Of a stretch of DNA of 33,032 nucleotides, positions 1,941 through 30,540 are shown one piece after another. The DNA comes from a virus. Every line of letters starts with the position of its first letter. The first letter of the stretch is position 1. A model generated the notes under the pieces. It had not been told where the DNA came from and ran no database searches. It saw only the letters and a program-made list of their open reading frames with translations. Made by a program: the position numbers and the translations under genes. The stretch is taken from positions 1 through 33,032 of IMG/VR virus record IMGVR_UViG_3300011116_000409; one strand, written 5' to 3'.

Positions 1941-2867
1941 ATGGAACTAACAAGTGAAATAACATTTACAAATATGCAGGGCAAACATACGCTTTATAAT
2001 CAGAATTATTATAAAGACAATTATATCGTGCCCTATGTCAAAGGATTCACAGAATACTTGAACGCATGTCCAACACGCTATAATCCTGCGTTCTATGCAT
2101 ATAAGACAGATGGCATCATAGGTGCTAGCCTAGCATATTATGGCGAGTATACAGAACTAGAGTTGGCATTACTGCGCAATTTCATGAATGAAGAGGTCAT
2201 AGCCTATGATATCGGTGCCAATATTGGTTATCATACTGTAGGATTAGCGAAATCTTGCAAACATGTCTATGCATTTGAACCAAATCAAAAAAACCTCGAT
2301 CTTTTGCATATCAATATCACGCATGACAAAAACGTAGACATATTTGAATGCGCCATCAGCGATAGTGACGGCACCACTATGATCAGCGATTATGAATTAG
2401 GTGATATGGGCAATTATGGCGAGTGCAAACTAACTGATAAGGGCCAAGAATGCATAAAGCGTAGCATAGATTCATTAGTGAAAGAAAATTTGATAGAGCC
2501 ACCTAATCTAATCAAGATCGATGTAGAAGGTCATGAGTACGAAGTGTTCAAAGGCATGGAAGACACTATCAAGAACAATTTGCCTGTGATCATGTATGAA
2601 GCCATGCATTGTGACCTCGCAAATATCTATGACATGTTGAATGGTCTAGCATATACATTATATTGGTTCCCTGTACCTAACTATAATCCAGATAATTTTT
2701 ATAAAAACAAAGAAAACATCTTTGGTCAAGGAGGCGTATTAAACATATTGGCTGTACCATTCCATGTCAATCTAAACACTAATCTACCTAAAGTATCAAG
2801 TCGTGATGAGACATATCAACAGTTGGTAGAAGAGATGTTAAAGAAACAGAATGCAAAATCTGATTGA
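1941..2867 (+). CDS. FkbM-family SAM-dependent methyltransferase
   Basis: A 308-residue class I methyltransferase. The SAM-binding motif I is YDIGANIGYHTVGLA (about residues 89-103), followed by the acidic loop VYAFEPNQKN (109-118) and the FkbM signature LIKIDVEGHEYEVFKG (about 190-205), then MYEA. FkbM enzymes O-methylate sugars or similar hydroxyls. In phages they are often found near structural or surface-modifying genes, so targets could be host glycans, virion glycans or small molecules (inference). The gene lies between the terminase subunits and overlaps TerL by 17 bases, an unusual place for a methyltransferase. It lacks the target-recognition motifs of a DNA methylase. Confidence 0.88.
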   Translation: MELTSEITFTNMQGKHTLYNQNYYKDNYIVPYVKGFTEYLNACPTRYNPAFYAYKTDGIIGASLAYYGEYTELELALLRNFMNEEVIAYDIGANIGYHTVGLAKSCKHVYAFEPNQKNLDLLHINITHDKNVDIFECAISDSDGTTMISDYELGDMGNYGECKLTDKGQECIKRSIDSLVKENLIEPPNLIKIDVEGHEYEVFKGMEDTIKNNLPVIMYEAMHCDLANIYDMLNGLAYTLYWFPVPNYNPDNFYKNKENIFGQGGVLNILAVPFHVNLNTNLPKVSSRDETYQQLVEEMLKKQNAKSD

Positions 2868-6427: not shown

Positions 6428-6859
6428 ATGGCATTAGCAGACACATTAAAAGAACAGTTAGGAACATTGGAAGCATGGAAAGTAAAGAGCCAAGGTTTTC
6501 ATTGGAACGTAGAAGGTGAAGGTTTCGTAAGTCTACATGAATTGTTTGGTAAGATTTATGAAGATGCTGACGATGCCATTGACACATTAGCCGAGCATAT
6601 CAGAACATTAGAAGTCTATGCTCCAGGATCTATGAAAAGATTTATAGAATTAAGTGCTATCAAAGAACAAGAAAAAATACCAAAAGCCATGCTTATGGTA
6701 AAAGAATTGATCAATGATAGTGAAATCATTCTAGGTCACCTCGACCAATGCTTTGCGGAGGCGACTAAGGATAATAAACAAGGCATCGCAAATTTTATTG
6801 CTGACCGCCAAGCGGCTCACAGTAAATACTTGTGGATGTTAAAAAGTTACGCAAAGTAA
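6428..6859 (+). CDS. Dps/ferritin-like protein encoded in the head operon
   Basis: 143 residues, slightly shorter than bacterial Dps (about 160). The first helix carries KSQGFHWNVEG, then FVSLHELFGKIYEDADDAIDTLAEH and APGSMKRF, matching the Dps pattern. By alignment to Dps from memory, the ferroxidase ligands His25, His37, Asp52 and Glu56 are present with the right spacing, but the Asp four residues after the second His is Gly41. Dps dodecamers oxidise iron with peroxide and shield DNA. The gene lies 4 bases after the portal with GGAAG before the ATG, so it is expressed late with head genes. It could protect DNA from oxidation, store iron, or have been adopted as a structural protein. Confidence 0.82.
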   Translation: MALADTLKEQLGTLEAWKVKSQGFHWNVEGEGFVSLHELFGKIYEDADDAIDTLAEHIRTLEVYAPGSMKRFIELSAIKEQEKIPKAMLMVKELINDSEIILGHLDQCFAEATKDNKQGIANFIADRQAAHSKYLWMLKSYAK

Positions 6860-6898: not shown

Positions 6899-7672
6899 AT
6901 GAGCGATTATCAGAATGAATTCGTTGGCAACGATACAGCCGAAGTTGTAGACAACGCAGGACAGTCTACAGACGCTAAAGTTAATCCTGGTGCTATACGC
7001 AAGTCTACCACACATTCAATATTGAACGCATTGTCAAACGCAAGCGGTCAACCATTTGAGAGTGTAGAGGCTGCTATCGCATACATGGCAAGAACAGCGG
7101 CGCAAGCAGGTTCTGCACCCGTTGGCCACGCACAGCCAGTGGAACAACCATCACAGCGTAATGGTCGTGTCACCACAAATGATCTACATGAGCAGTTCAA
7201 CAAACTTCAAATGGATCTTGCACGTAAAGAGCAAGCATTGCGTGAAAAAGAGTTGGATGGTGACATCATGAGAAGCATGGGTGAGAAGTTCGATAGCGAT
7301 TTAATGGATTATGCTATAAACAAAGTAAAGTCAAACATTCGTTGGAATGATGATGGCAGTTATAGCATCGTAAATCAAAAAGGACAAGAACGTTATGCAA
7401 TGGATGGTAATCCACTCACGATCTCTGGATTAGTAGAGGAAGTAGCGAAGGGTAATCCTAAGTTACTTAAACAGAGTAATCTAACCGGAGGTTCAGGTAT
7501 GAGACCTGGAAGCAATTTTGCAGGAGCACCTGATGAAGGCATTCCTGACTATACGAAAGACCCAGCCGCGTTCAACGCATGGGCTCAACGTAATGGTCTA
7601 GGTAAACGTGTCGGACTCAAGGCTGCAACTGTAGAAGTACATGCGCAACAGATGTCTCGAAAAATACTCTAA
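6899..7672 (+). CDS. Putative capsid scaffolding protein
   Basis: 257 residues between portal and major capsid, the standard place for a scaffold. The N terminus is low-complexity and acidic. Residues about 95-125 are a charged coiled coil (LHEQFNKLQMDLARKEQALR). The C-terminal half has LTGGSGMRPGSNFAGAP, then YTKDPAAFNAWAQRNGLGKR, a basic tail that could bind capsid subunits. There is no serine protease motif, so maturation by a fused protease is not evident. AGAGGAAAT precedes the ATG. The assignment is by position and composition, not by a family signature. Confidence 0.65.
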   Translation: MSDYQNEFVGNDTAEVVDNAGQSTDAKVNPGAIRKSTTHSILNALSNASGQPFESVEAAIAYMARTAAQAGSAPVGHAQPVEQPSQRNGRVTTNDLHEQFNKLQMDLARKEQALREKELDGDIMRSMGEKFDSDLMDYAINKVKSNIRWNDDGSYSIVNQKGQERYAMDGNPLTISGLVEEVAKGNPKLLKQSNLTGGSGMRPGSNFAGAPDEGIPDYTKDPAAFNAWAQRNGLGKRVGLKAATVEVHAQQMSRKIL

Positions 7673-27168: not shown

Positions 27169-27387
27169 ATGTCGATGCTAGAAACACTAACAGCGTTCAT
27201 AAAAACATTACCAACTTGGCTTGGTGCAGTAGTCGAGGTAATGGTCGTAGCGATAATCTTTTTGACTGCTATGACCTTCCTCGCAGGAATATGGTGTGGT
27301 TTGCGTATAGTTGGTAAACGAGCCAATGCTATACAAAGTATAGAATTCTTTCCGCCCCGTATAATTTTCAAGGACTCAGATAAATAA
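27169..27387 (+). CDS. Small one-helix membrane protein (holin/spanin candidate)
   Basis: 72 residues. A single hydrophobic stretch (about residues 19-46, LGAVVEVMVVAIIFLTAMTF then LAGIWCGLRIVG) is followed by a basic cytoplasmic-type tail (GKRANAI) and FPPRIIFKDSDK. The size and single helix fit a small (class III-like) holin or an inner-membrane spanin. It is the last gene of the late operon, where siphoviruses often place lysis genes. No endolysin sits beside it. Function by context only. Confidence 0.6.
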   Translation: MSMLETLTAFIKTLPTWLGAVVEVMVVAIIFLTAMTFLAGIWCGLRIVGKRANAIQSIEFFPPRIIFKDSDK

Positions 27388-27800
27388 ACATGTAGGGTGT
27401 GCGTTTTCCATATGTTGAGTGCCAAAATCCGTCCTATTTTAGACTAAGCCATAGTCTATCCGTATAGCACACCCTACATCCTCAATACAAAAAGAAATGC
27501 CCGCTTTGTGCGATCTGCGGGCAGAGATCAGATAGCCTTGCAACATCTTTGAGAGATTCTCCTTGTTAAGGAAAGTCTTGGGGCTATTATGCACGTTGAA
27601 AAAGATGCTAGGTTTCAGCGCATACTACCTAGCGAGTATGGATGACCGAGGCTGAATTGGTCGCGCCTAAATTTATTGCCCGATTTGTGCGCCTTCGGTG
27701 CCGAGATTACAAATGATCAGCGGGGAATATAACAACATTGCTAAGAGTGCTGATCTAGATACACAATAATAATTATACAGATTTATATACCTATTGCAAA
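27388..27800. other. Gene-free, highly self-complementary region between convergent operons (candidate structured RNA)
   Basis: No credible gene lies here. Visible structures: a perfect 13-bp pairing of 27390-27402 with 27467-27479 that encloses a TAGACT/AGTCTA hairpin; TGCCCGC/GCGGGCA (27498-27504 with 27517-27523); GCTAGGT/ACCTAGC (27607-27613 with 27627-27633), mutually exclusive with CATACT/AGTATG (27621-27626 with 27635-27640); GATCAGC/GCTGATC (27715-27721 with 27749-27755). Two similar stretches, TGCCCGCTTTGTGCG (27498) and TGCCCGATTTGTGCG (27678), occur. The first hairpin follows the stop at 27387 by 2 bases and may end the late transcript. The density of pairings suggests a stable RNA rather than a simple terminator. 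Confidence 0.6.
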
Positions 27801-28187
27801 TTATTTGGGTGCCTGCTTGCAATTATCAAAATGATATCTATTCATATTACCTTGATTTTTACTTTGAAATTTACAATAAGGACAAACAATCATTGGTTTT
27901 AGTTTCATTGTTTTTTTATATTTTTCTACCTGCTCTTTAGATTTTGGTACACCCTTCAATCTAGCAATTTTTGCTTCACGCACACCGGGCGCATATGCTG
28001 GATTGTTTGTTCCAATCATATCAGGTCTTTTGACTCCTTTTTTACCATTGCTAAGATTTTTGCGGTAATCCTTATCATTGGCTTTATTAATATTAGCCAA
28101 AACACGATTAGCATTAGTCTCATTTAGAGAATGCAATTTACTAGAATTGCGTATTTCATCTAACTTTTTTTGAATATCATTGGACAT
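27801..28187 (-). CDS. NUMOD3-like DNA-binding protein with C-terminal zinc finger, no nuclease domain
   Basis: 128 residues from the ATG at 28187, which overlaps the ATPase stop by 11 bases; an upstream start at 28208 is less likely. The middle carries NUMOD3-type helix-turn motifs (GTNNPAYAPGVREAKIAR, then LKGVPKSKEQVEKYKKT), as found in the DNA-recognition part of GIY-YIG and HNH homing nucleases. The end has CPYCKFQSKNQGNMNRYHFD then NC, a C-x2-C...H-x3-C finger common at the end of such nucleases. No GIY-YIG or HNH core is present. It may be a nuclease remnant or a domesticated DNA-binding regulator. Confidence 0.72.
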   Translation of the reverse strand: MSNDIQKKLDEIRNSSKLHSLNETNANRVLANINKANDKDYRKNLSNGKKGVKRPDMIGTNNPAYAPGVREAKIARLKGVPKSKEQVEKYKKTMKLKPMIVCPYCKFQSKNQGNMNRYHFDNCKQAPK

Positions 28188-29684: not shown

Positions 29685-29723
29685 AGATAAATAAACATGC
29701 ACTTTCAAAGAGTGCGCTTTTGA

Positions 29724-29800
29724 CCTCCTAGACTATGGGCTTTTAGCGGAGCCCATAGTCATTCTTCGCTAAAGAATGGAGGCTAATGATTTATAGGAGG
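29724..29800 (+). promoter_or_regulatory. 5' leader that can mask the ribosome binding site (anti-Shine-Dalgarno element)
   Basis: CCTCCTA (29724-29730) is perfectly complementary to TAGGAGG (29794-29800), the ribosome binding site of the gene at 29810. Between them are two perfect hairpins stacked end to end: GACTATGGGC/GCCCATAGTC (29731-29740 with 29751-29760) and ATTCTT/AAGAAT (29761-29766 with 29772-29777). A second GGAGG (29779-29783) could pair with the same CCTCC, giving an on and an off form. The arrangement would form a three-way junction that hides the site, like a thermometer, riboswitch or protein-controlled leader. Confidence 0.65.
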
Positions 29801-30043: not shown

Positions 30044-30540
30044 CATTACATTGATCATATGCGTTCCATACTACGCTGAAAGTATGAAAAACCCGTTCTG
30101 ATGTGTGACGGTATGTTGTGCGATCAACACGATTCTATGAGACTACCTCGAAAGAGATGCCAAAAATGAATTCTGAATCAGAATAACATTTCTCATAGTC
30201 TAAATGGTAAAAATGCGATGCGTCATAGTAACAAGGGTAGAGGGCGCATACTAGACATAGACAATCACCAACAAAGGTCTATGTTATTAGTGAATACGAT
30301 AGCAGCCTACAAGGTCATGAGATATAGTCAATCCGCTGTGTTAAATGCTAGGAGTTGGAACCTTAGACCTCAGGTAATGTTGGTTAAGGAAATAGGTCGG
30401 TAGAGTATCTACCCCTATTTCCCTAGGTAATATTGAGAGCGATGTACGATGAGACCTAAAAAAAACAACACGAACAGGAGTTTACTCCTGTGAAGTGTAT
30501 GTTTTGAGCGTAGCGAAAAACATGATATAGGAGACGACAA
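30044..30540 (+). other. Gene-free structured stretch (candidate non-coding RNA or long leader)
   Basis: 497 bases with no convincing gene. Hairpins seen: CATACT/AGTATG with 8-base loop (30067-30086); CTATGAGA pairing with TCTCATAG (near 30134 and 30191) around a hairpin ATTCTG-AAT-CAGAAT; ACATAGAC/GTCTATGT (30255-30262 with 30277-30284); AAATAGG-TC-GGTAGA pairing with TCTACC-CCTATTT (30390-30420, 13 bp with a 2-base bulge); ACAGGAG/CTCCTGT (30474-30491); ATGTTTT/AAAACAT (30499-30523). GCGCATACTA (30244) also occurs in the other gene-free region at 27618. The last hairpins lie just before the ribosome binding site TAGGAG (30528-30533) of the next gene, so part of it is a leader. Confidence 0.55.

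Follow-up and report, generated by a model that had tools for sequence, protein, structure and literature searches.

Comparison with related viral contigs shows that the 413-nt stretch at 27388-27800 of the window (the whole 33,032-nt sequence analysed, IMG/VR record IMGVR_UViG_3300011116_000409) encodes two predicted sets of structured RNA on opposite strands, a hairpin RNA on the plus strand (module A) and an array of double pseudoknots on the minus strand (modules C, D and B). The modules are previously undescribed and Rfam 15 holds no matching family; the window gave nothing at the gathering threshold and 27300-27880 gave nothing up to E = 10 on either strand, as expected of a new family. 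Tandem phage pseudoknots were likewise absent from the literature searched, and a few further searches turned up nothing equivalent to the modules. Arrays of paralogous double pseudoknots might constitute an undescribed RNA class that this phage lineage uses either for modular punctuation or as a non-coding RNA of several modules, a view we hold with less than even confidence.

The window is a circular phage genome of 31,765 bases with its end repeated. Its plus strand carries genes for terminase, portal, tape-measure and tail fibre, and at 6428-6859 (plus strand) it encodes a ferritin-like protein (Pfam PF00210). By portal comparison no named phage is close, the nearest, at 24-26% identity, being Pelagibacter phages and phage DSL-LC06; blastn against named phages matched nothing. 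The stretch is gene-free, as an earlier sequence-only reading had it, lying between a 72-aa plus-strand gene (end at 27387) and a minus-strand gene (end at 27801); no gene inside it is supported, and its length changes by non-triplets among relatives. The 72-aa gene has no family match, its label "holin-like" being taken from its own sequence only, while the minus-strand neighbor weakly resembles homing endonucleases. That neighbor raised the possibility of a group I intron, which was rejected, as Rfam gave no match and relatives have the modules with other genes in its stead. Related viral contigs were gathered through the holin-like gene (eight) and the module motif (three more), a small sample in which some members are closely related; bacterial genomes queried with the holin-like protein yielded no relative.

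The minus-strand features are as follows.

27772-27799, minus strand: promoter-like TTGCAA-N16-TATAAT, sigma70-like, upstream of module C, 10 of 12 consensus matches
27678-27766, minus strand: module C, double pseudoknot; a TTGTGT 27766-27761, P2 27755-27749/27721-27715, d CCGA...TCGG 27698-27680
27607-27667, minus strand: module D, double pseudoknot; a GGCGCG 27667-27662, P2 GACC/GGTC 27662-27644, sharing one base with a
Within module D, minus strand: core; c CATACT 27640-27635, d GCTAGGT 27633-27627, c' AGTATG 27626-27621, d' 27613-27607
27606-27598, minus strand: U-rich tail ATCTTTTTC after module D, similar to that of module B
27499-27594, minus strand: module B, double pseudoknot; a GTGC 27594-27591, P2 ATAGCC/GGCTAT, c GATCT 27529-27525, d GCCCGC/GCGGGC
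27488-27498, minus strand: U-rich tail ATTTCTTTTTG after module B

Along the minus strand the order of parts is a, P2, c, usually 1-3 nt, d, c', a', an A-rich 2-3 nt and d'. Strands a and c, which flank hairpin P2, pair with a' and c', adjoining stretches in the 11-14-nt loop of hairpin d/d', and modules span 56-107 nt. Counting against the simultaneous formation of a-a' and c-c', only 2-3 nt would then have to cross a 9-11-bp helix. Module D is an H-type pseudoknot (S1 6 bp, L1 1 nt, S2 7 bp, L3 7 nt), its minus-strand loops of 1 nt across the deep groove and 7 nt across the shallow groove giving the classical geometry, and the a/a' helix would use part of the 7-nt loop. The two stems that the sequence-only reading had called mutually exclusive, GCTAGGT (27607-27613) with ACCTAGC (27627-27633) and CATACT (27621-27626) with AGTATG (27635-27640), are both present and correspond to d/d' and c/c' of module D. 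Their exclusivity holds on the plus strand, where a last loop of 1 nt would have 7 bp to span, but not on the minus strand, where the two are compatible; the proposed switch between them is unsupported, the two being parts of a single pseudoknot. The core of module D scores 32 (0 of 2000 shuffles) and that of module B 32.5 (0 of 2000 shuffles reach 32), and D-type modules also occur in two other contigs (G013, G017).

Compensating base changes, named beforehand as the test of a structured RNA, were found and support one strongly. In module C, 97.8% of cells are paired (9 sequences); in module B the figure is 93.3% (7 sequences). The DNA identity of module C to relatives is 75-85%. Among about 40 modules all four helices covary, including arms such as TTGTGT/GCACAA, TCGTGC/GCACGA, CAGGGC/GCCCTG, ACGG/CCGT, GTCT/AGAC and GCACA/TGTGC for a; GATCT/AGATC, GTCT/AGAC, CATACT/AGTATG, ACACT/AGTGT, CGTAT/ATACG and CCT/AGG for c; and GCCCGC/GCGGGC, ACCACGA/TCGTGGT, GCTAGGT/ACCTAGC, CTACCGT/ACGGTAG and GGTCCGT/ACGGACC for d. 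Arms pair at 95-100% with their own partners and at 48-69% with those of other modules, a contrast flattered by the choice of arms by hand; a fairer test comes from descriptor scans run alongside shuffled controls. A two-stem core scan at a score of at least 30 gave 17 real matches against 1 shuffled, and a strict four-helix scan at a score of at least 52 gave 25 against 0.25 per shuffled set, although both scans were built after the first modules had been seen and those modules contribute to the counts. Within the stretch, the minus strand holds two H-type pseudoknots scoring at least 32 and the plus strand none; not one of 2000 shuffles holds even one.

Non-Watson-Crick pairs in the helices number 32 G.U against 7 A.C on the assigned strand, favoring RNA of that strand over an inverted repeat at the DNA level. 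This asymmetry and the loop geometry, like the promoter position and the direction in which inserted genes run, indicate the minus strand as the probable source of C, D and B, and not the plus strand, to which the 3' three quarters of the stretch had been assigned. The promoter-like block also precedes strand a of module C in other contigs at a near-fixed distance.

The plus-strand features lie at the other end of the stretch.

27380-27386, plus strand: ATAAATA box, candidate T4-late-like promoter for module A, with the stem core G (27392) 5 nt downstream
27390-27479, plus strand: module A; stem 27390-27402/27467-27479 around hairpin 27440-27446/27452-27458, loop GCCA conserved

The long stem is the perfect 13-bp inverted repeat described earlier, and module A, folded on its own, reaches z = -5.0 on the plus strand (0 of 300 shuffles). 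Across eight sequences 96.1% of its cells are paired, 12 having changed on both sides, and the two sides of the long stem change in step (GTAGGGTGTGC/GCACACCCTAC, GTAGGGTGAGC/GCTCACCCTAC, GTAGGGCAG/CTGCCCTAC); in the two most distant contigs the stems are quite different, at 12-14 bp. One A-stem position in the contig of L008 is G.U on the plus strand and A.C on the minus strand, which fits the plus strand. The structure proposed for this part is accordingly backed by compensating changes, but the stretch as a whole would hold two sets on opposite strands and not one RNA. In related contigs the distance from an ATAAATA or CTAAATA box to the first G of the conserved A stem is exactly 5 nt in every copy, and T-run hairpins lie downstream of module A in L007, L008, L009 and L094. 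Over 12 contigs ATAAATA occurs in 83 sense and 11 antisense copies, 74 of the 83 sense copies lying outside ORFs of at least 100 aa. We infer that module A is probably transcribed separately, as an RNA of its own, from a late-type promoter that belongs to it.

Several further observations were made around these elements. Plus-strand ATAAATA sites of the window (27380, 29687, 30036, 30979 and others) resemble the T4 late promoter TATAAATA; no T4-like sigma gene was noticed in the course of the analysis. Directly after one such box, a leader at 29690-29790 (plus strand) is strongly folded (z = -4.9), and a similar leader near 7070 of G004 has a stem that differs around its TTTTAGCG loop; the intergenic segment at 30404-30540 (plus strand) folds at z = -4.2. 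In G006 an Rfam COG2908 RNA match directly follows module A (L168 12108-12153, plus strand, 43.3 bits, E = 4e-9, below the gathering score). In L008 and L009 a gene of Dps-like appearance separates the holin-like gene from module A (site L172 3090-3524, plus strand).

The minus-strand module recurs at gene boundaries in about twenty viral contigs, its sequence changed and its fold kept. A protein-blind search of the viral collection used two DNA patterns from the d-loop-d' core, the looser of which gave mostly chance matches. Five of six contigs picked for plausible architecture (G012, G013, G014, G016, G017) carry the lineage portal (59-78% identity) or the holin-like gene; the plausible-looking L221 (G015) has neither and was dropped. 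The pattern GAAGGCGCACRAATCG occurs in 48 stretches of viral contigs, and outside the known lineage all were judged chance; GATCTT...AAGATT matches in G003 and G011 may be coding and were not counted. The more distant portal relatives G045 and G028 have two intergenic modules, while no convincing module emerged from the DNA beside the portal in 79 relatives of greater distance, and 35 of the contigs of these 79 showed no holin-like gene. In L006, L093, L094 and L096 the stretch splits into independent pieces, each kept, with genes between them, and C, D and B are separated by inserted genes in several relatives. Gene-free arrays of two to four modules are found in the window, G001-G004, G014 and G017, with the order C-C2-E in G014 and C-D-B-E in G017. 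The first module of a run mostly begins 0-36 nt past a stop codon of the same strand. When the next gene is close, typically 7-28 nt separate d' from the ATG of that gene, with no SD-like motif between; for comparison, a lenient count assigns an SD-like start to 107 of 166 ORFs of 200 aa or more. Module limits and some of these downstream ORFs are judgement calls. In L174 (G010), at about 2010-2040 (plus strand), a Fur-type-operator-like dyad GATGAGAATGATTCTCATTCGCATC lies upstream of a TTGACA/TATAAT-like promoter.

The stop and ATG spacing, the SD-less starts, the T-rich tails and the promoter block before module C make RNA punctuation in cis the leading explanation. The modules most likely act as leaders, intercistronic elements or terminators of accessory genes, to which we give close to an even chance. 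Module C would form the 5' end of the transcript, its first bases buried in the pseudoknot, and the other modules would stand between successive genes or terminate transcripts, with the d hairpin and its frequent U-rich stretch perhaps acting as terminator or 3'-end protection. Because a module often ends so shortly before an SD-less start, it probably sets the output of the next gene. The retention of the fold a-P2-c-d-c'-a'-d' while most of the sequence has changed would imply one shared, shape-reading partner, possibly the ribosome, RNA polymerase, a nuclease or an RNA-binding protein. Because the window phage has no genes between its modules, transcription would yield a non-coding RNA some 270-280 nt long. 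If modules replace Shine-Dalgarno sequences or terminators, they would offer a small phage a compact and portable way to gain and lose accessory genes.

Gene-free arrays count against a purely cis-acting role, which does not require modules to be kept with no gene between them; so do the empty terminator scan in the window and the shortness of some downstream ORFs, which may not be genes. The gene-free arrays, which comprise two, three or four modules and follow a conserved promoter block, speak most strongly for a stand-alone trans-acting small RNA, possibly processed into single modules. Such an RNA would bind a host or phage protein or RNA as decoy, antitoxin mimic or regulator and would be a new phage RNA effector. 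A fold kept under sequence change is also what a shape-reading partner would call for. We consider this main rival unlikely, if worth taking seriously, given the tight placement of many modules, on either strand, in the gap from a stop codon to a start codon, and given that no toxin-like partner gene was found; a PF13958 (ToxN-like) search of 17 contigs returned none, but the control genomes gave no match either, leaving that search with no positive control. It is less probable again that the modules are plain terminators or 3'-end stabilizers, with d/d' and the U-rich tail ending transcripts and the pseudoknots merely protecting the end. The 8 nt after d' are T-rich (48% against 31% overall, 39 modules) and clear T6-T7 tails occur in G007, G008 and G045, but in roughly two thirds of modules these 8 nt contain fewer than five T, module C stands at the transcript start without a T run, and a/a' and P2 covary though a terminator needs neither. 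An intrinsic terminator scan of 27300-27900 found none; the 11-14-nt loops exceed the limit of the scan, and T-rich tails do exist.

Compact pseudoknots upstream of genes and in tandem copies recall known riboswitch arrangements, and a GCRC-N-AA-like loop pattern is kept. A ligand-binding riboswitch in tandem copies is nevertheless quite improbable, since almost no bases beyond the A-rich tail are invariant, even GCRC covaries with strand a (CAGGGC/GCCCTG, ACGG/CCGT), the downstream genes differ and suggest no common metabolism, and no Rfam riboswitch matched. The single plus-strand RNA with a conformational switch proposed earlier for all 413 nt is disfavored and can hardly be credited. Inverted repeats exist on both strands and the folding energy of the whole region is similar on the two, but that energy is not significant (z = -1.4 on plus and -1.9 on minus; 8 and 7 of 100 shuffles, respectively, were as good), and the strand evidence for C, D and B favors minus.

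The modules resemble several known systems in part. Phage and metagenome sequences also contain small nested pseudoknots in the form of self-cleaving ribozymes such as pistol and HDV-like, but the strand order of these is probably unlike that of the modules, which have no conserved catalytic core and no Rfam match. Intrinsic terminators share the GC-rich d/d' followed by a U-rich tract, as in G007, G008 and G045 and loosely in modules D and B of the window, whereas here the 11-14-nt loop would be engaged in two further helices and module C, at the transcript start, has no T run. The repZ/repA pseudoknot of the IncI-type plasmid ColIb-P9 (Asano and Mizobuchi 1998, as cited in PMC10724649) is similar in arrangement only, a pseudoknot between an upstream stop and the start of the next gene that could control translation of that gene; its topology is different, and starts after the present modules have no Shine-Dalgarno sequence. 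In type III toxin-antitoxin systems the RNA antitoxins ToxI, CptI and TenpI are tandem pseudoknotted units behind a promoter, some of them phage-encoded (PMC5449768). Near-identical tandem repeats, which define these antitoxins, were sought and are absent, as C, D and B share a fold and differ in sequence and length. The likeness is one of arrangement only, the present units being strongly divergent in sequence, 56-107 nt long and equipped with the extra hairpin P2 and a second pseudoknot.
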